From assembly GCA_027307335.1 (NCBI GenBank), contig DAHUXD010000044.1, positions 62,001 to 126,000 on the forward strand: DNA of 64,000 bases, written 5' to 3'. The notes beneath the pieces were generated by a model. The model worked only from the letters and a program-made list of their open reading frames with translations, was not told the origin of the DNA and did no database searches. This stretch comes from Acidobacteriota bacterium. Its GTDB lineage: Bacteria; Acidobacteriota; Thermoanaerobaculia; UBA5066; Gp7-AA6. Below, piece by piece: positions 7,873 through 18,424 of this stretch. Both the position numbers and the translations under genes were made by a program. Each line of letters begins with the position of its first letter. Positions within the stretch are counted from its first letter, which is position 1.

Positions 7873-9213
7873 TCACTGCGAAAAAGCGCCCTCGAGAAGC
7901 AGCCCCCGCGCCTCGCCGACGAGATACAGGGAGCCCGCGACGATTATAAGTTCCGCCGCCGGGTCGCGCAGCAGCTCGTCGAGCGCCGGCGCGATGCCGT
8001 CCGCCGCGCGCGCGTCGCCTCGCGCGCCGAACCGGCGCTCGAGCTCCGCGGGATCCGCGGCGCGCGGCGACGCGGCGGAGACGAACCGGACGCGCCGCAC
8101 CGCCGGCGCGAGCGCGGCCCCCATGCTCTCGATGTCCTTGTCGGCCATGGCGGCGAAGATCAGGTCCGCGCGCCGCCCCGAGGCCGCCACGAATCGGGCG
8201 AGCGCCTCCGCACCGCCGGGGTTGTGGCAGCCGTCGAGCAGGATCGTCCGTCCGGCCCGCTCGAACCGCTCGAGGCGGCCCGGCCAGCGCACCGCCGCGA
8301 CGCCGCTCACGATCGCCTCGCTCCCGATCCGGAACGCCGGCGCGAGCAGCTCGGCCGCGCGCACGGCGACCGCCGCGTTCTCCACCTGGTGCGCTCCCGG
8401 CAGCGGGGTCGAGAGCGCGTACCGTCCCGAGGGAGTCGTCAGCCGGAATCGCGCCCCGTCGAGGCCCGATGCCTCCACCTCGATCGAGACCTCCTCGGCG
8501 AGAAGGTGCAGCGCCGCGTCCGTGCGGGCGGCGGCCTCGCGGAAGACGGCGACCACCTCCGGGAGGCGGCTCGCCACGACGGCGGGACGCCCGGAGCGGA
8601 ACACGCCCGCCTTCTCGAACGCGATCGCGGCGACGGTGCCGCCGAGGTCCTCCATGTGGTCGAGGGAGATCGAGGTGACGGCGGACAGAACGGCTGGAGC
8701 GACGTTCGTCGCGTCGAAGCGGCCGCCGAGCCCGACCTCGAGGATGGCGAGGTCCAGACCGAGGCTGGCGAAGTGGAGGAACGCCGCGGCCGTCATCGCC
8801 TCGAAGTAGGTCAGCGGCACGGCGGGCGCGCGGTCCGCCGCCGCGAAGACCGCGCCGAGCGCGCCATCGAGAGCCTCGGCACGCACGTCGTCGCGGCCGA
8901 TCCGGATGCGCTCGGTGACGCTCTCGAGGTGCGGGGAGGTGTAGAGGCCGACGCGAAAGCTCGCGGCGTCCGCGATCGACGAGAGGGTCGCTGCGGCCGA
9001 CCCCTTGCCGTTCGTGCCGGCGACGAGCACCGAGGGGACGCGGCGCTCCGGCCGGCCCAGCCGCTCGCAGACGGCGTCGATCGCCGCGAGGCCGAGTTTC
9101 ATCCCCCGCTGGCCGAGGGACTCGAGGCGCTCGAGGTGCGGGAGCGCGGACGGCGGAGGCGTGCGCGGCTCCCCTACGCCGCCGGCCGCCCGTCCCACAG
9201 CAGGCGGAGGCAT
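7873..9213 (-). CDS. folC: Folylpolyglutamate synthase / dihydrofolate synthase
   Basis: Adds glutamate to dihydropteroate or folates, an ATP-dependent Mur-type ligase (cytosol). The P-loop is VLVAGTNGKGSAAAT, followed by the family segments YTSPHLESVTERIRI, LTYFEAMTAAAF, ILEVGLGGRFDATN and ISLDHMEDLGGT. The central turn is LPGAHQVENAAVAV, and the C-terminal domain holds LLDGCHNPGGAEAL and IFAAMADKDIESM. The ATG at 9213 gives 446 residues and overlaps the accD 3' end by 40 bases; a GTG at 9198 would give 441. The first conserved stretch (LPHLERLESLG) starts about 25 residues in, so either start is possible. Confidence 0.92.
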   Translation of the reverse strand: MPPPAVGRAAGGVGEPRTPPPSALPHLERLESLGQRGMKLGLAAIDAVCERLGRPERRVPSVLVAGTNGKGSAAATLSSIADAASFRVGLYTSPHLESVTERIRIGRDDVRAEALDGALGAVFAAADRAPAVPLTYFEAMTAAAFLHFASLGLDLAILEVGLGGRFDATNVAPAVLSAVTSISLDHMEDLGGTVAAIAFEKAGVFRSGRPAVVASRLPEVVAVFREAAARTDAALHLLAEEVSIEVEASGLDGARFRLTTPSGRYALSTPLPGAHQVENAAVAVRAAELLAPAFRIGSEAIVSGVAAVRWPGRLERFERAGRTILLDGCHNPGGAEALARFVAASGRRADLIFAAMADKDIESMGAALAPAVRRVRFVSAASPRAADPAELERRFGARGDARAADGIAPALDELLRDPAAELIIVAGSLYLVGEARGLLLEGAFSQ

Positions 9214-10031
9214 CGCGCGAGGGTCGCCTTCATCTCGGAGCGGTCGACGATCAGGTCGAGCATGCCGTGCTCGAGGAGAAACTCCGAGCGCTGGAACCCC
9301 TCGGGGAGCGTCTGCCGGATCGTCTGCTCGATGACCCGCGGCCCCGCGAATCCGATCAGGGCGTTCGGCTCCGCGATGTTGAGGTCGCCGAGCATCGCGT
9401 ACGAGGCGGTCACCCCTCCCGTCGTCGGGTCCGCCATCACGGAGACGTACGGGACGCGGGCTTCCGCGAGCCGGCCGAGCGCGGCCGCGATCTTTCCCAT
9501 CTGCATCAGCGAGAGGATCCCCTCCTGCATCCGGGCGCCGCCCGAGGTCGAGACGAGGATCAGCGGCCGGCGATCGGCCAGCGCCCGCTCGCACGCGCGC
9601 GCGATCTTCTCGCCGACGACCGAGCCCATCGAACCGGCCATGAAGAAGAACTCCATCGCGCCGATGATGACCGGAATGCCGTCGAGAGTCCCCGAGCCGA
9701 CGACGATCGCGTCCGACGGGCCGACGCCTTCCTCCGCCTCGCGCAGGCGATCACGGTACTTCTTGCTGTCCCGGAAACGCAGCGGATCCGAGGAGCGCAG
9801 CCCGGGGTCGAGCTCGACCCACTCCTCGTCGTCGAAGAGCATGCGGAGCCGCTCCGGCGCCGAGAGGCGGAAGTGGAACCCGCACTTCGGGCAGATCTTG
9901 AAGTTCCGGGCGAGCTCCTTGTTGTAGAGGATCTGGCGGCAGCTGTCGCACTTGACCCAGAGCCCCTCGGGCACCTTGCTCGTGCGGCCTTCCCGGACCT
10001 CTTTCGGGGCGCGATCCTTGCGGAACCACAT
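9174..10031 (-). CDS. accD: Acetyl-CoA carboxylase carboxyltransferase subunit beta
   Basis: Beta subunit of the carboxyltransferase that makes malonyl-CoA for fatty acid synthesis. 285 residues. The N-terminal zinc ribbon uses C28, C31, C47 and C50 (CDSC and CPKC). The crotonase-like core shows MGSVVGEKIARA, SGGARMQEGILSLMQM and PTTGGVTASYAMLGD, the oxyanion-hole glycines expected of AccD. accA is not in the window. It heads a tight leftward run with folC, and the accD-folC pairing is a common bacterial arrangement. Confidence 0.96.
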   Translation of the reverse strand: MWFRKDRAPKEVREGRTSKVPEGLWVKCDSCRQILYNKELARNFKICPKCGFHFRLSAPERLRMLFDDEEWVELDPGLRSSDPLRFRDSKKYRDRLREAEEGVGPSDAIVVGSGTLDGIPVIIGAMEFFFMAGSMGSVVGEKIARACERALADRRPLILVSTSGGARMQEGILSLMQMGKIAAALGRLAEARVPYVSVMADPTTGGVTASYAMLGDLNIAEPNALIGFAGPRVIEQTIRQTLPEGFQRSEFLLEHGMLDLIVDRSEMKATLARCLRLLWDGRPAA

Positions 10032-10092: not shown

Positions 10093-10887
10093 TCAGAGGT
10101 CGGCGGCGCCTCCGGGGAGCACGGCGCTCCGCACGCGGAAGGCGCTCCCCCGGGACTCGAACGGGGCGCCGAACGCGCGCGAGAGGTTGTCCGGGGTCAG
10201 CACGTCGGCGCGCGGGCCGCGGGCGATCGCCCGCCCCGCCTTCAGGAGGAGGACGGAGGTCGCGAGCGCCCCGGCGAGCGCGATCTCGTGCGTCACGAGA
10301 AGGACGGTGGTCCGCCGCTCGCCGTGCACGCGCCACAGCGTCTCGAGAAACTCGAGCCGATGCCGCGGGTCGAGCCCGGCGGTCGGATCGTCGAGCAGCC
10401 ACACCTCCGCCTCCTGGGCGAGCGCCCGCGCGAGGAACACCCGGCGCCGCTCGCCGCCCGAGAGCGCCTTCGCGTCGCGTCCCGCGAGGTCCTCGACGTC
10501 GCACGCGCGCATCGCCTCGCGCGCGATGCGGAGGTCCTCCGCCGTGTCCGCCGCGAAGCCGCGGCCGTGAGGCGCCCGCCCCTGGAGCACGAGGTCGAGG
10601 CTCCGGATCGGGAACACGAGGTCGACGCTCTGCGGCACGTAGGCGATCCGGCGGGCGCTCTCGCGCCGCGGCATCTCCGAGAGCGGCCGGCCGCCGAAGA
10701 GCACCTCGCCGCCCGAGGCCGGGAGAACGCGCGCGAGGACCCGCAGGAGCGTCGACTTGCCCGACCCGTTCTCGCCGAGCACGGCGACGACCTCGCCCCG
10801 CCCGATCGACGCGTCGAGGCCGTCGAGCGCCCGGCTCGCTCCGTAGCGGGCCGACAGGGCGCGCGTCTCGATCAGCGTCTCGTTCAA
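10093..10887 (-). CDS. ABC importer ATPase (BtuD/FecE type)
   Basis: 264 residues; ATPase of a cobalamin or iron-chelate type importer. Walker A is GENGSGKST (38-46), the signature is LSGGERRRVFLARALA, Walker B is VWLLDDPTAGLD, and the switch histidine is LLVTHE. DLVLQGRAPHGRGF is the Q-loop-to-helical region typical of this subfamily. The start is a TTG overlapping the permease stop (TTGA), which gives the expected few residues before the first strand. It is the third gene of a binding protein-permease-ATPase operon. Confidence 0.88.
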   Translation of the reverse strand: MNETLIETRALSARYGASRALDGLDASIGRGEVVAVLGENGSGKSTLLRVLARVLPASGGEVLFGGRPLSEMPRRESARRIAYVPQSVDLVFPIRSLDLVLQGRAPHGRGFAADTAEDLRIAREAMRACDVEDLAGRDAKALSGGERRRVFLARALAQEAEVWLLDDPTAGLDPRHRLEFLETLWRVHGERRTTVLLVTHEIALAGALATSVLLLKAGRAIARGPRADVLTPDNLSRAFGAPFESRGSAFRVRSAVLPGGAADL

Positions 10888-11858
10888 GGCGTCCTCAAGA
10901 GCAGCCACGCGAACAGCGGCGCGCCGAGCGCGGCGGTGATCGCTCCGATGGGCAGCTCCGCGGGAGCGAGCGCGGCCCGCGAGACCGCGTCGGCCGCGAC
11001 GAGGAGGGCCGCGCCGGCGAGGGCGGAGAGCGGCAGCAGCGTCCGCTGGTCGTTGCCGGCGACGGCGCGGGCGCCGTGCGGCACGAGGAGCCCGACGAAC
11101 CCGATGACGCCGGCGAACGCCACGGCCGCTCCGGTCAGGAGCGACGCGGCGAGGAAGACGACGCGCTTGGTCCGCTCCGTGTCGACGCCGAGCGCGGCCG
11201 CGCTCTCCTCGCCGACCGCGAAGAGATTCAGGCGCGCGGAGGCGGCGACCAGGACGGCGGCGCCCGCGAGGGCGTAGGGCGCCAGCGCGGCGACCTTGCC
11301 CGGCGTCGCGTCGGCGAGGCTCCCCATCATCCAGAAGAGCATCGTTCGCGAGGCCTCGCCGGAGGCGATCGAAAACGCCGCGAGCAGCAGCGCGGAGAAG
11401 AACGCGTTCGCGATCAGGCCCGCGAGAAGGAGGCGCTCGAGGTCGAGCCGCCCGCCCCGCCGTGCGAGTGTTGCGACGCCCACGGACGAGGCCGCGGCGC
11501 CGAGGAACGCCGCCGCCGGAGAAATCAGGGGCGAGGCCCCCGCGAGCGCCGCGCAGGCGGCGCCGGCCGCCGCGCCGCCCGAGGTCCCCAGGAGGAAGGG
11601 ATCGGCCAGAGGGTTCTTCAGCAGCGCCTGGAGCGCGGCGCCCGCGAGGGCGAGGCACCCGCCGACGAGCGCGGCGAGGAGCACCCTCGGCACGCGCAGC
11701 GCCGCGAGCAAGCGTGCGGTCCGCCCGGCCTCCCCCTGGCCGCCGAGCAGGTCTCCGAGCGAGAGGTGCACTCCGCCGACCGAGAAGGCGAACAGGAGGA
11801 CCGCGGCGAGGAGAAGGAGGCCGGCGGCGATCGCCGGAGCACGCGGCAGGGCCTTCAT
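10884..11858 (-). CDS. FecCD/BtuC-family ABC transporter permease
   Basis: 324 residues with about nine or ten hydrophobic helices; membrane channel of the importer. Family hallmarks are LRVPRVLLAALVGGCLALAG, ALLKNPLADPFLLGTSGGAA, and the C-terminal GVIGFVGLLVPHGAR coupling loop followed by ELPIGAITAALGAPLFAWLL. Start and stop both overlap neighbours by ATGA or TTGA, so it is translated in step with its binding protein and ATPase. Confidence 0.92.
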   Translation of the reverse strand: MKALPRAPAIAAGLLLLAAVLLFAFSVGGVHLSLGDLLGGQGEAGRTARLLAALRVPRVLLAALVGGCLALAGAALQALLKNPLADPFLLGTSGGAAAGAACAALAGASPLISPAAAFLGAAASSVGVATLARRGGRLDLERLLLAGLIANAFFSALLLAAFSIASGEASRTMLFWMMGSLADATPGKVAALAPYALAGAAVLVAASARLNLFAVGEESAAALGVDTERTKRVVFLAASLLTGAAVAFAGVIGFVGLLVPHGARAVAGNDQRTLLPLSALAGAALLVAADAVSRAALAPAELPIGAITAALGAPLFAWLLLRTP

Positions 11859-12736
11859 CGCGCGGCGTCGGCGAGCTTCTCGAGCATGTCGAAGACGCGG
11901 GGACCCGGACGCGTCAGGGCCGCCTCGGGGAGAGCAATGCGTCGGGCCTTCGCCACGGCGCCGGTCGAGAGCGCCCCGTTCGGGCCGAAGCCGCTCTCCC
12001 AGGCCGCGCGGGCCTCGATCGACTCGGGAATCACGACGAGATCGACCGGGACCGTGGCGAGGTACTCCTTCGAGAGCACCGGCCAGCCCCGCCGGTCCTC
12101 GACCAGGTTCTGCAGGCCCGCCTCCGTCAGCACGTCGTTCAGGAAGGTCTGGCCGCCGGCGGCCTGCGGGGGATCGGGCCAGACGAGCAGCAGCGCCCGC
12201 GGCCTCGGACGGCCGGCCACCTTCGCCCGCACGGCGGCGCGACGGGCCGCGAGCCGGTCCGCGAGGCGGCGTCCCTCCTCGGGCACGCCGAGACGATCGG
12301 CGACCAGGCGGATGCTGTCGAGCACGGCGTCGAGCGACCCGGACGGCGTGACGGTGACCGGCAATCCCGCGGCCTCGAGCGCCCGCACGGCCCCCTGCGC
12401 GTTGCCCTCGGCGACGGCCAGCACCAGGTCCGGCCGCATCGCCGCCACCTTCTCGGGATCGACCTGAAGTCCGCCGACGCGCGGGATGCTCCGCGCGGCC
12501 TCCGGATAATCGGAGTACTCCGACACCCCGACGAGGCGGTCTCCCGCCCCGAGCGCGAACACGATCTCGGTGAGATTCGGGGCGAGAGTGACGACCCGCC
12601 TCGGCGCGCCGGCCGAGGGAGCCGACCCGTGCTCGGCCTGTCCGCAGGCCAGCCCGAGCACCACGGCGAAGAGAAGCCCGGCGGCGACTCGCCGCGGCGG
12701 CCGCGCCGCGACGGCCGTCCATGAGAACTCGATCAT
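11855..12736 (-). CDS. Periplasmic binding lipoprotein of a BtuF-type importer
   Basis: 293 residues. An N-terminal signal ends in a lipobox-like VLGLACGQ, so it is probably membrane-anchored by lipid at that Cys. RRVVTLAPNLTEIVFALGAGDRLVGVSEYSDYPEAARSIPRVGG is the conserved opening of cobalamin and haem/siderophore binding proteins of the two-lobe, single-helix-linker class, and the DYP step favours BtuF. The substrate (cobalamin against an iron chelate) cannot be settled: no cobalamin riboswitch, TonB receptor or cobalamin biosynthesis gene is nearby. First gene of the operon; no strong ribosome site is visible. Confidence 0.85.
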   Translation of the reverse strand: MIEFSWTAVAARPPRRVAAGLLFAVVLGLACGQAEHGSAPSAGAPRRVVTLAPNLTEIVFALGAGDRLVGVSEYSDYPEAARSIPRVGGLQVDPEKVAAMRPDLVLAVAEGNAQGAVRALEAAGLPVTVTPSGSLDAVLDSIRLVADRLGVPEEGRRLADRLAARRAAVRAKVAGRPRPRALLLVWPDPPQAAGGQTFLNDVLTEAGLQNLVEDRRGWPVLSKEYLATVPVDLVVIPESIEARAAWESGFGPNGALSTGAVAKARRIALPEAALTRPGPRVFDMLEKLADAAR

Positions 12737-12846: not shown

Positions 12847-13071
12847 TCAGCCCTGCGATTCGGCCTCTTCCAGCTCGTTGCGAACGCCGAGGCGCTGACA
12901 CGCGGCGTCGTACATCTGCCGCGCCGCCTTCTGCGCGTTCTGCAGCTCCGCCAGCCGGTCCTTCACCTTCGCGAGTTCCTCCTGGATCTCGCCCTCGAGC
13001 TCCTGGATCTCTTTCTTGGTGACCGTCAGCGTGTTTTCGTAGAACTTCTTCTGCTCGTTCGAGAGGGCCAT
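12847..13071 (-). CDS. Small coiled-coil protein of unknown function
   Basis: 74 residues, strongly helical and charged, with heptad-like spacing through TKKEIQELEGEIQEELAKVK and KDRLAELQNAQKAARQMYDA, so probably a cytosolic coiled coil. No signal peptide or known motif. The ATG at 13071 is preceded by a perfect AGGAGG nine bases upstream, one of the clearest ribosome sites in the window. It lies 35 bases downstream of the receiver-kinase-TonB gene in the same direction, with a strong hairpin after it, so it is probably the last gene of that transcript and may be a partner of the kinase. Confidence 0.7.
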   Translation of the reverse strand: MALSNEQKKFYENTLTVTKKEIQELEGEIQEELAKVKDRLAELQNAQKAARQMYDAACQRLGVRNELEEAESQG

Positions 13072-13106: not shown

Positions 13107-15983
13107 TTACGGTTTCACTTCGACGATGACGGGGCGCCACATCTTGACGGGAATGCCGTTCTTGGTCGCGGGACGGAACCGCGCCCCTTTGACGGCCGCG
13201 ACGACGGCGTCGTTGACCGCGGGCTGCGCGACGCCCTGCTGCATCCGCCCCTCGGTGACCCGGCCGTTCTCGTCGACGAGGACGAGCACGATCACCTTGC
13301 CCTGGACGCGCTGCTGCCGGGCGATCTCGGGATACACGACGCGGGGAGGCGCGGCGAGCACGGGCTCGATCACGCCGGGACCCGGGCCGACGAGGTCGCC
13401 GCGCTGCGTCTCGGGCTCTCGGGCGGGGGGCGGCTTCGGCGGCTCGACGGCCGGGGGCGGCTCGGTGGGAGCCGCGGTCGGAATGGGGACCGCCGTCGGC
13501 GGAATGATCACGGGGGCGGCCGTCGGCTCGACGGGGGCCGGAGCCGGGGGCGCGGTCGCCGCGGCTTCGGGGATCTGGGCCGCCGCGGCCTTGCCGGCCG
13601 CCGCCCGGTCGAGCTCCCTGCGCCGCACGGCGAGCTGACGCTGGACCTCGGCCTCGACGGCCCTGGCGTCGATCGCGGGCGCGGCCGGCGGCACCGCGGC
13701 CACCGGCGCGCTGGTCGGTACGAGCGTCGGCGCCGCGACCGCGGCCTTCGTGGGCACCGCCGCGGGCGACGCGCCCTGCGGCTTCATCGAGCGCCACACG
13801 AAGAACCCGACCAGCGCGGCGGCCGCCAGACCGACCGCGACGAGAAGCGGCGTGCGGCTGGATCGCTCCGCGTCGACGGACTTCGCCGCGAGAGAGCCGA
13901 AGACCTCCGGACCCGGTCTCCCCGGTTCGGAGCCGACCGCCGGCTCGGGAGGAGCCGGGGGAGGCGGCGGCGGAGCGGCCGGTTCGGGAGAGGGCGTGGG
14001 CGACGGGGCGGGCTTCGCGGCGGCCGGCGGCGAGGGCTTGCGCGAGACCGGCGCTCCCTTCGACTTGCGCCGGGGCGCCACCGCCGGCTCCGCCTCCTCG
14101 GCCGCGTGGGCCGCCTCGCGCGCCTTCGCGTCCGCGAACGCGTCCTCCTCCGCCTGGAGCCGGTGCAGATAGATCGCGACGTCCGCGCTCCCCGGGGCCG
14201 GCGTGTACGAGTACAGCACCGAGTCGAGGTCCCGCAGCAGATCGGACGCGTTGGCATACCGCTCGTCCGGTTCCCGCGCGAGCGCCTTGAGAACGACCGC
14301 GTCGAGATTGTGCGGCACTTCGGGATTCGAGCGCGAGGGCGGCGGCGCCTGGACGTTGCGCACCTTCTCGAGCACGTTCATGTCGGTGTCGCCCTGGAAG
14401 AGGCGCTCGCCGGTCAAGAGCTCGTGGAGGACGACGCCGAGCGAGAACAGGTCGCTGCGGCGGTCGATGGGCCGGCCCCACGCCTGCTCGGGCGACATGT
14501 ACTGGATCTTTCCCTTCAGCGCGCCCGACTGGGTCTTCGACGCCTTCGAGGCCGCCTTCGCGATCCCGAAATCGCAGAGCTTGATGTCGCCCTCGTACGA
14601 GATGAGGATGTTCTGCGGCGAGACGTCGCGGTGCACGATGTGGAGATCGTTTCCTTCGGCGTCGCGGCGGCGGTGCGCGTAGTCGAGCGCGGAGGCGACG
14701 CGCGAGGCGATGTAGACCGCGAGCGGCACGGGCAGGGGGATGTTCAGCTCGCGTCCCGCCTGCTGGATCGCGCGCAGGTCGCGGCCGTCCATGTACTCCA
14801 TCGCGATGAAGTAGCCGCCCGCCTGGATCTTCCCGAGGTCATAGATGTGAATGATGTTGGGATGGTTCAGCTGGGCGGCGAGCTTCGCCTCGTCGGCGAA
14901 CATCGTCACGAAGTCCTCGTCGTCCGCGAGGTGCGGCAGGATCTTCTTGATCGCGACGATCTTCTGGAAGCCCTCGACACCGGTGCGCTTCGCCTTGTAG
15001 AGCTCGGCCATGCCGCCGGCCGCGATGCGCTCGAGGATCTCGTACTGGCCGAAGCGGTCCGGTCCCGAAGAGGGCACGGCGGCCTCGGGCTCCTCGCGCT
15101 TCTTCGGCGGCGCTGCCGGCGGGGCGGAGGGGGGCGGCGGGGTCGCGCCCGGCGCGGTCTTCGGCTTCGGCCTCGAGAGGCCCGAAAGCGTGTCCGAAAT
15201 CATCCGGTCGACGTCGGTGTCGGAGGAGAGCTTCGGGCGCGCCGGCGTGACGGGCGTGACCGGCATCGACGGAGTGAGACCGGGGATCGCCGCCGGCGGC
15301 GCCTTCTTGCCCGCTCCGGTGTCCGGCCTGACGCCGCCCGCGGCCGGGCGCGGCGCGAGGAGACCCGAGAGCGTGTCGCGCAGCCGCTTGTCGATGTCGC
15401 TCTCGACCGGCGGCTTCGGGGGCGCCGTGGGAGCCGCCGCCGCCGGAGGGGGCACCGCGGGTTCCGGAGCCGGCGGCGCGGACGCCGGACGAGCCGGCTT
15501 CCCGCCGGTCAGCTCGTCGAGAACGTCCGAGAAGATGTCGGACGAGGTCAGCGGGGAAGCGGCCTGCGCCACCTGCGCGACGTCGATGCGCATCGTCCGC
15601 GCGCCGACGTCGGTCGACTCGACCGCGTCTCCGACCGCGGCGAGGAACTCCTCGTCGGAGAAGGGCCGCTGGAGGATGTCGAAGGCGCCGACCTTCTGCG
15701 CGTCGGCCTTGCGGTTGTTCCCGCGGTAACCGGTCATCATCAGGATGATCGGGGGCGCGGTCGCGCCGCCCTTCTTCCGGATCTCGCGGATCACCTCGGC
15801 GCTCGGAAGCCGCGGGAGCATGCCGGACAGGAGGATGAGATCGAAGCGAGAGGCGCCGAACGCCTGGAGGCCGGCTTCCCCGTCATGCGCCTCGCTGATC
15901 GCGTGACCCTGGGGGGTGAGGAGAGTCCGAATCCGCTCGATGTACCGCGGCTCGTACTCGATCAAAAGAACCTTTTTGGGCAT
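13107..15983 (-). CDS. Pseudo-receiver / Ser-Thr kinase / TonB C-terminal fusion protein
   Basis: 958 residues in four parts. Residues 1-122 form a response-regulator receiver fold, but the phospho-acceptor position is S53 (LILLSGMLP) rather than Asp, the early acidic pair reads EYE, and the usual Lys is Arg (ILQRPF), so classical phosphorylation is unlikely. A Pro/Ala-rich linker (123-308) holds three related short motifs. Residues 311-590 are a complete protein kinase: glycine loop GERIAAGG-type region, K346, E365, HRD with D453, DFG at 471-473, MSPEQ at 496-500. After another Pro-rich stretch comes one membrane helix (712-730), a second Pro-rich linker, and a TonB C-terminal domain (about 876-957, PRVVYPEIARQQRVQGKVIV). 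The kinase is thus cytosolic and the TonB end periplasmic. No exbBD genes are adjacent. Confidence 0.9.
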   Translation of the reverse strand: MPKKVLLIEYEPRYIERIRTLLTPQGHAISEAHDGEAGLQAFGASRFDLILLSGMLPRLPSAEVIREIRKKGGATAPPIILMMTGYRGNNRKADAQKVGAFDILQRPFSDEEFLAAVGDAVESTDVGARTMRIDVAQVAQAASPLTSSDIFSDVLDELTGGKPARPASAPPAPEPAVPPPAAAAPTAPPKPPVESDIDKRLRDTLSGLLAPRPAAGGVRPDTGAGKKAPPAAIPGLTPSMPVTPVTPARPKLSSDTDVDRMISDTLSGLSRPKPKTAPGATPPPPSAPPAAPPKKREEPEAAVPSSGPDRFGQYEILERIAAGGMAELYKAKRTGVEGFQKIVAIKKILPHLADDEDFVTMFADEAKLAAQLNHPNIIHIYDLGKIQAGGYFIAMEYMDGRDLRAIQQAGRELNIPLPVPLAVYIASRVASALDYAHRRRDAEGNDLHIVHRDVSPQNILISYEGDIKLCDFGIAKAASKASKTQSGALKGKIQYMSPEQAWGRPIDRRSDLFSLGVVLHELLTGERLFQGDTDMNVLEKVRNVQAPPPSRSNPEVPHNLDAVVLKALAREPDERYANASDLLRDLDSVLYSYTPAPGSADVAIYLHRLQAEEDAFADAKAREAAHAAEEAEPAVAPRRKSKGAPVSRKPSPPAAAKPAPSPTPSPEPAAPPPPPPAPPEPAVGSEPGRPGPEVFGSLAAKSVDAERSSRTPLLVAVGLAAAALVGFFVWRSMKPQGASPAAVPTKAAVAAPTLVPTSAPVAAVPPAAPAIDARAVEAEVQRQLAVRRRELDRAAAGKAAAAQIPEAAATAPPAPAPVEPTAAPVIIPPTAVPIPTAAPTEPPPAVEPPKPPPAREPETQRGDLVGPGPGVIEPVLAAPPRVVYPEIARQQRVQGKVIVLVLVDENGRVTEGRMQQGVAQPAVNDAVVAAVKGARFRPATKNGIPVKMWRPVIVEVKP

Positions 15984-17500: not shown

Positions 17501-18424
17501 ATGTCCTTCCAGGGCTCCATCTCCGAGCTCCCGGTTCCCGACATCATCCAGCTCGTCTCGGTGTCCGGGAAAACGGGCATGTTCCTGCTGCTCCGGGGAT
17601 CGGAGCGGGGCTCGATCTACCTGCGAAACGGCCGGATCGTGCACGCCGAGGTGGACGGCGTCAGCGGCGAGGAGGCCGTGTACGCGCTGGCGATCTGGTC
17701 GACCGGCGACTTCCAGTTCACGCCGGGCAAGGAGAGCGAGACCGTCACCATCGACAAGACCAACACCTCGCTGCTGATGGAGGCCGCGCGGCGGCTGGAC
17801 GAGTGGAAGGTCCTCGCGCGGAAGATTCCCGGAGTCGATCACATCCCCGTCCTCAAGCCGCGCGATCTCGGCGAGCCGGTCACGCTCTCGCCGCCGGAGT
17901 GGAATCTCGTCATCCGCATCGACGGACGCAAGACGGTCGAGGAGCTCGCCCGGGCGACGTCCTCCAACTCCTTCGACACCGCGAAGGTGCTCTACGGCCT
18001 GGTCACTTCGGATCTCGTCGACATGCGCGCCGGAAATCCCGCCGCGCGCACGGCCCCCTCGGCGGCGGACGCCTCGGTGCCGCCGCGGGAGTCCTCGGCT
18101 CCCCGGCCGATGCCTGCGCCGCCCGCCGCCGCGGCGTCGTCGGCCGCGCGCCCCGCGGCCCCCCTCGGCGACGAGAAGAAGATCCTGATGATTCTCTGCA
18201 CACGCGTGAAGCAGGAGGCCGAAGGGGCGATCGGCGAGGCCAACCTCCCGGGCATCGACCGCCCCTACAAGCAGGCGCTCGCCGAGATCGACCGCGGCCG
18301 CGGGGTCGAGGCCGTTCGCGACCTGATCCGCCAGACCGAAAAGGCCATCGCCTCGATCCGCGGCCCCGCGATCATGAAGGCGTTCCAGGAAAAGATGTCG
18401 CTGGTGATGCAGCCCAAGGTGTAG
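17501..18424 (+). CDS. DUF4388-domain protein
   Basis: 307 residues, cytosolic. Residues 1-100 match the DUF4388 (PatA N-terminal-like) domain: MSFQGSISELPVPDIIQLVS, SGKTGMFLLL, GSIYLRNGRIVHAEVDG, GEEAVYALAIWSTGDFQF. A second small helical module (about 127-170, RIDGRKTVEELARATSSNSF) resembles the winged-helix region often found next to it. An Ala/Pro-rich linker leads to a helical C-terminus (about 220-307). DUF4388 proteins occur with gliding, polarity and two-component systems in deltaproteobacteria and acidobacteria; the exact role is unknown. A TACGAT box and a GAGG lie just before the ATG. Confidence 0.75.
   Translation: MSFQGSISELPVPDIIQLVSVSGKTGMFLLLRGSERGSIYLRNGRIVHAEVDGVSGEEAVYALAIWSTGDFQFTPGKESETVTIDKTNTSLLMEAARRLDEWKVLARKIPGVDHIPVLKPRDLGEPVTLSPPEWNLVIRIDGRKTVEELARATSSNSFDTAKVLYGLVTSDLVDMRAGNPAARTAPSAADASVPPRESSAPRPMPAPPAAAASSAARPAAPLGDEKKILMILCTRVKQEAEGAIGEANLPGIDRPYKQALAEIDRGRGVEAVRDLIRQTEKAIASIRGPAIMKAFQEKMSLVMQPKV

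Follow-up and report, generated by a model that had tools for sequence, protein, structure and literature searches.

Gram-negative bacteria are known to have only a handful of receptor Ser/Thr kinases whose periplasmic module is defined. Proteins of the GltJ/GltG type have a zinc-finger/GYF or FHA cytosolic part and belong to the Agl-Glt locus. In TonB, Ser16 and His20 contact ExbB and dock on it (PMC12215075). Among receivers, the pseudo-receiver of ShkA gates the kinase to which it is attached (PMC7010744), and the switching of bacterial pseudo-receivers has been called a mystery (PMC12632262). Small proteins also take part in kinase function: GpsB is required for the activity of the receptor kinase StkP (PMC3983041). 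A kinase found across a phylum, with a pseudo-receiver on the inner side, a predicted TonB-type domain on the outer side and a small partner gene that constantly accompanies it, is a concrete test object for two questions, that of Gram-negative receptor Ser/Thr kinases with a periplasmic module and that of pseudo-receiver switching. A limited search of the open-access literature found no prior description of a kinase/pseudo-receiver/TonB_C design.

The window, that is the whole stretch of 64,000 nucleotides analysed here, comes from an Acidobacteriota bacterium. An earlier note on it had proposed that a kinase is fused to a pseudo-receiver and to a TonB C-terminal domain, and this fusion is real. 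Indeed, receiver, kinase, one membrane helix and TonB_C are found on a single chain, encoded by one unbroken frame with an ATG start whose coordinates proved exact (Table 1). The Pfam matches, Response_reg (1.3e-13), Pkinase (3.2e-39) and TonB_C (6.3e-14), all exceed the curated cut-offs. As had also been proposed, the helix leads to the TonB domain, which is probably periplasmic. The full receiver-kinase-TM-TonB_C layout is present in orthologues at about 51-55% identity, including a syntenic one in an Acidobacteria gp7 AA6 MAG (L009, 51% over the full length). Because the whole architecture recurs intact in orthologues and the frame is continuous, a decayed or frameshifted copy is ruled out.

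Table 1. Features of the locus, in window coordinates.
Feature	Position	Strand	Basis
Pseudo-receiver / Ser-Thr kinase / TM / TonB_C protein, 958 aa	13107..15983	(-)	ORF, Pfam, orthologues
Pseudo-receiver, residues 5-117; Ser53 acceptor (nt 15825-15827), Glu9-Tyr10 pocket, Arg106	15633..15971	(-)	Pfam, alignment, AF2
Linker motif A, TSSDIFSDVL, residues 146-155	15519..15548	(-)	Motif search of linkers
Linker motif B, DIDKRLRDTLSGL, residues 196-208	15360..15398	(-)	Motif search of linkers
Second copy of linker motif B, DVDRMISDTLSGL, residues 257-269	15177..15215	(-)	Motif search of linkers
Hanks-type Ser/Thr kinase domain with all catalytic residues, residues 314-577	14253..15044	(-)	Pfam, motifs
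Only predicted membrane helix, His-free, about residues 711-729	13797..13853	(-)	Hydropathy
TonB_C domain, residues 881-950, probably periplasmic	13134..13343	(-)	Pfam; AF2 + Foldseek, best matches TonB CTDs
Coiled-coil protein of 74 aa from an unnamed family; AGGAGG 9 nt before ATG	12847..13071	(-)	Neighbourhood, profile scans, alignment
BtuF-like periplasmic binding protein	11855..12736	(-)	Pfam, B12 model search
BtuC-like ABC permease	10884..11858	(-)	ORF translation, start check, conserved order
BtuD-like ABC ATPase, approximate start	10093..10887	(-)	ORF translation, conserved order
accD-like gene (acetyl-CoA carboxylase subunit), conserved as downstream neighbour	9174..10031	(-)	ORF translation, conserved order

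The architecture is kept throughout the class and by a large part of the Acidobacteriota. When 60 relatives were searched with the receiver alone, 47 had matches in addition to the window's own genome, in a few cases solely to ordinary receivers; the 44 class loci that were read (L043-L086) include L044 and L083, which lie outside the main receiver alignment and were read separately. At the level of the phylum, the receiver-profile search also picked up true receivers (L195-L197, L200, L201, L203, L204) and was therefore left out of the co-occurrence counts. Pfam scans of 25 diverse members found Pkinase, Response_reg and TonB_C in 22 each. Some relatives are kinase-less receiver-TM-TonB_C proteins (L150, L158, L160, L164, L178, L180-L182, L184, L185 and others), and some kinase members are devoid of TonB_C (L143, L153, L161, L168). 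Hence, the family requires neither the output nor the input, since some members have lost TonB_C and others have no kinase. Pseudo-receivers that stand alone (about 160-176 aa) and have Glu as acceptor residue also occur, immediately before the accD frame or overlapping it (L205, L208, L209, L210).

The AlphaFold2 model of the receiver part resembles receiver domains. In the window, the acceptor Asp is replaced by Ser53, as the earlier note had read it, the second pocket acid by Tyr10 and the conserved Lys by Arg106. The accompanying claim of a missing acidic pocket holds for the second acid but is too strong, because the first, Glu9, remains. Likewise, Arg106 is correct for the window but is a local feature, confined to some members, because Lys is retained at this position in most relatives (69 of 90 family receivers). 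Loss of the Asp does extend across the group: the acceptor site is Ser, Thr, Cys or Gly in the class relatives, all 44 of which lack the Asp, and the second pocket acid is absent there too. Orthologues with an intact Asp, which the note had held to be decisive against it, were not found in the class, but two distant relatives keep the residue, L151, where the receiver is split off, and L161, both with Tyr in the pocket. Over the 90 family receivers, 51 have Ser/Thr as acceptor residue, 27 have Glu and 2 have Asp; the second pocket residue is never acidic (0/90) and is Tyr in 77, and the first pocket site is E or D in 85. Judged by these residues, the family does not qualify as phospho-accepting receivers, which are defined by the acceptor Asp and the acidic pair. 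By fold prediction and alignment, the window domain is a pseudo-receiver, or aspartate-less receiver, with a receiver fold and no acceptor Asp. Since the receiver can be a separate gene ahead of the kinase, as in L151, it can be argued to be a working module.

The residue found at the lost-Asp site varies with the presence of the kinase. Glu occupies it in 17/17 kinase-less receiver-TonB_C proteins and Ser/Thr in 49/63 kinase-fused receivers, R, A, N, G, C, Y, D and E being likewise found in kinase members. This correlation is a lead only, because it rests on few independent events: the receiver tree, built after masking of the acceptor column, has poor resolution and yields only two usable independent pairs, and a statistical test of Glu against kinase absence was underpowered. 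One idea, which we consider quite doubtful, is that Ser/Thr at this site could be phosphorylated in cis by the fused kinase, Glu being a fixed phospho-mimic. If true, the Ser/Thr kinase would have taken over the receiver of its own chain, and the whole, with TonB_C and the coiled-coil partner included, would be a kind of trans-envelope signalling not recognised so far.

The kinase had been described as having every catalytic residue, and the VAIK Lys, HRD and DFG are all present (VAIKK, DEAKLAA, HRDVSPQN, DFGIAK). These motifs are constant in the class: relatives keep VAIK[KR], DEAKLAA, HRD[VI]SP[QP]N and DFGIA wherever their frame covers them, the sole variant being HRDVSTHN in the truncated L050. 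By domain and motifs, the protein is a Hanks-type Ser/Thr protein kinase, and it is predicted to be active. The linker between receiver and kinase carries two recurrent motifs. Motif A (TS[DE][DE][IL]FGD-like) is found in 43 of the 69 receiver-kinase linkers, motif B (D[VIL]D..L..TLSG-like) in 35, and one or both in 58; the strict forms of both were found at a rate of 0.0 in shuffled linkers. Both motifs are candidate docking sites.

At the other end of the protein, the TonB_C domain, modelled with AlphaFold2 from two sequences (pLDDT 82), has as its best PDB matches in Foldseek exclusively TonB C-terminal domains, several of them in receptor complexes (6i97 FoxA, 9dc4 TbpA, 2gsk BtuB). In family f2, TonB_C is devoid of the YP motif, and TonB-box binding may therefore be gone there. 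Among 64 family membrane helices, neither [ST]-x3-His (0/64) nor His of any kind (0/64) was found, whereas the motif is present in 3/3 TonB/TolA-like controls from the same genome, namely the TonB on contig C14, which has two ExbD as neighbours, a TonB-like protein next to ExbD on C31 and another on C63. ExbBD had first been reported as absent next door, and a search for ExbD found none on the whole 217-kb contig; the three ExbD of the genome lie on C14 and C31 only. A receptor or an anchor is thus likelier than an energised transducer, because the docking motif is absent in the 64 helices and present in the controls.

Immediately downstream of the kinase, and outside the coordinates covered by the earlier note, a small gene starts 35 nt past the kinase stop. 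Its 74-aa product matched no accepted family in Pfam and NCBIfam scans, which returned weak coiled-coil look-alikes below cut-off. It has twenty invariant columns in an alignment of 12 sequences, and its conservation (52-82%) is above that of the kinase protein. The coiled-coil gene adjoins the kinase in all 37 class loci with room on the contig; in 30 distant coiled-coil loci, its neighbour is a kinase in 24 and a kinase-less TonB_C protein in 5, and it stands alone in 1, these counts describing adjacency in loci found through receiver or coil matches rather than a full census. Over the phylum, the gene is present in 136 of 396 genomes. In family f9, the coiled-coil gene is absent (15 genomes), as is any receiver-kinase match (11 genomes); in the phylum of the Myxococcaceae, the gene was found in 0 of 195 genomes. 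Thr18 of the coiled-coil protein was considered as a fixed phosphosite and rejected, as distant members do not keep it.

Since an architecture with a pseudo-receiver, a complete kinase, a helix and TonB_C is conserved, a kinase acting from envelope to cytosol is its natural reading. This part of the earlier proposal stands; the direct link to outer-membrane transport is not supported as first worded, as the ExbB-docking motif is missing from every helix, no outer-membrane partner was found for the window protein and its most constant neighbour is the small coiled-coil gene, which the earlier note does not mention. We favour, with moderate confidence, an envelope-sensing inner-membrane receptor-type Ser/Thr kinase, of which the pseudo-receiver and the coiled-coil protein would be regulatory or docking parts. 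From hydropathy, the kinase and pseudo-receiver would be cytosolic and TonB_C periplasmic, on a linker of about 150 residues. What TonB_C binds there may belong to the peptidoglycan or the outer membrane, or may be a periplasmic binding protein, for instance BtuF. Such binding, or tension, would alter the dimerisation or placement of the kinase, which would then phosphorylate cytosolic targets. The pseudo-receiver would have a regulatory or docking role that needs no Asp, for which ShkA is a precedent. The coiled-coil protein would be a dedicated partner, whether as adaptor, activator or substrate, and might make contact through the pseudo-receiver or the linker motifs; here GpsB is the precedent. 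Against this reading weigh the members without TonB_C or without the kinase, the missing YP motif in family f2 and the chance that the btuFCD and accD-folC neighbours are there merely as operon company. Because the design and the small partner gene recur in much of the phylum, this gene of a soil bacterium is a promising candidate for a mode of envelope sensing that is as yet uncharacterised.

The neighbourhood bears on a first alternative. Downstream of the coiled-coil gene, the conserved order is btuFCD, accD and folC; upstream of the kinase, yebC and ruvC are divergent, and a DUF4388 protein (17501-18424) is conserved by yebC-ruvC and the kinase in many relatives. BtuF matches Peripla_BP_2 (6e-25), its closest B12 model being under its own cut-off. 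Because a BtuF-type ABC importer follows in many lineages, corrinoid or iron uptake may be connected with the kinase. The device could then work inside-out, the kinase and pseudo-receiver controlling a TonB_C end engaged in BtuFCD-linked uptake or in a transient outer-membrane bridge, with phosphorylation as regulator, not output. Consistent with this, 26/53 kinase loci and 5/24 kinase-less loci have btuF no more than 700 nt downstream, the latter including families with neither the kinase nor the coiled-coil gene (L178, L180, L181, L182, L185), in which a BtuF-like gene immediately follows a kinase-less pseudo-receiver-TM-TonB_C protein. A TonB-BtuF contact has been suggested, not proven, by spin-label distances (PMC9853854), and GltJ/GltG of Myxococcus xanthus gliding are modular TonB_C membrane proteins (PMC5349195). 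However, the helices lack the docking motif, and several families (f6 and others) keep the kinase and the coiled-coil gene without adjacent btuFCD, so that we regard this alternative as rather unlikely. As BtuF also follows kinase-less members and an Rfam search found no cobalamin riboswitch in the window, a link to uptake or fatty-acid synthesis is suggestive only, and btuFCD with accD-folC may be ordinary operon company.

TonB_C might also merely fix the kinase to a peptidoglycan or envelope site, where the pseudo-receiver and the motif-rich linker would gather clients such as the coiled-coil protein. The kinase-less L158, L160, L164 and L188 agree with such a scaffold in that they retain everything else, from pseudo-receiver and linker to TM and TonB_C, in some cases along with the coiled-coil gene, and SjdR, which is TonB-like without a transport role, shapes the septal cell wall (PMC8262864). 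Anchoring alone leaves the strict conservation of the kinase active site unexplained, however, and its probability appears low. Finally, the protein might be a TonB paralogue that ExbBD energises and to which a regulatory kinase has been joined. This reading, suggested by the TonB_C fold and by the three ExbD and eight plug-domain receptors encoded elsewhere in the genome, is highly improbable given the His-free helices and the distinct TonB that already accompanies two ExbD genes on C14; from the helix composition, the window protein is unlikely to be driven by ExbBD.

Other proteins of this genome (G000, 4.4 Mb) deserve mention. The window protein as query gave 109 matches in it, most over the kinase domain, with many dozens of kinase-domain matches. 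A pseudokinase-TM-TonB_C protein (G000:C28:103748-105613; L042 1749-3614) that has lost HRD and DFG lies between MltG-like and thioredoxin-like genes; this type has matches in 48 of 61 genomes, with the motifs lost in 12/12 read, and a second paralogue on C18. Another TonB_C protein (G000:C49:2249-2470; L088), with apparent SH3-type repeats and a helix without [ST]-x3-His, is a further non-classical use of TonB_C.

Among known proteins, a Myxococcaceae MAG protein (L011, 2651-4759) likewise combines Pkinase (1.2e-50), a TM and TonB_C (2e-13) on one chain. It differs by having no receiver, and its genome is devoid of the coiled-coil gene. TonB energy transducers share the TonB_C domain and its predicted fold, a single TM and a long Pro/Ala-rich linker; unlike them, the window protein has a large cytosolic kinase part, no Ser/Thr-x3-His and no ExbD on its contig. 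GltJ/GltG are also modular, with a single TM and a periplasmic TonB_C, but no kinase is described in them (PMC5349195), and a Pfam scan of the window protein found no zinc-finger/GYF or FHA domain. FrzS and ShkA REC1, which are aspartate-less receivers, have the same receiver fold without acceptor Asp; however, ShkA is a histidine kinase, whereas the partner here is a Ser/Thr kinase. PASTA kinases (PknB/StkP/PrkC) resemble the window protein in their Hanks-type kinase, single TM and extracytoplasmic C-terminal module, and the best NCBIfam match of its kinase domain is PknB_PASTA_kin (NF033483), at 305.5 bits for a cut-off of 450. With this score under the cut-off and no PASTA repeats in a Pfam scan, the window protein is, by profile, not a PASTA receptor kinase; in contrast to these kinases, it has TonB_C outside and a pseudo-receiver inside. 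An envelope-sensing kinase of this kind would act like the Gram-positive PASTA receptor kinases, a TonB-type domain taking the place of the module outside.
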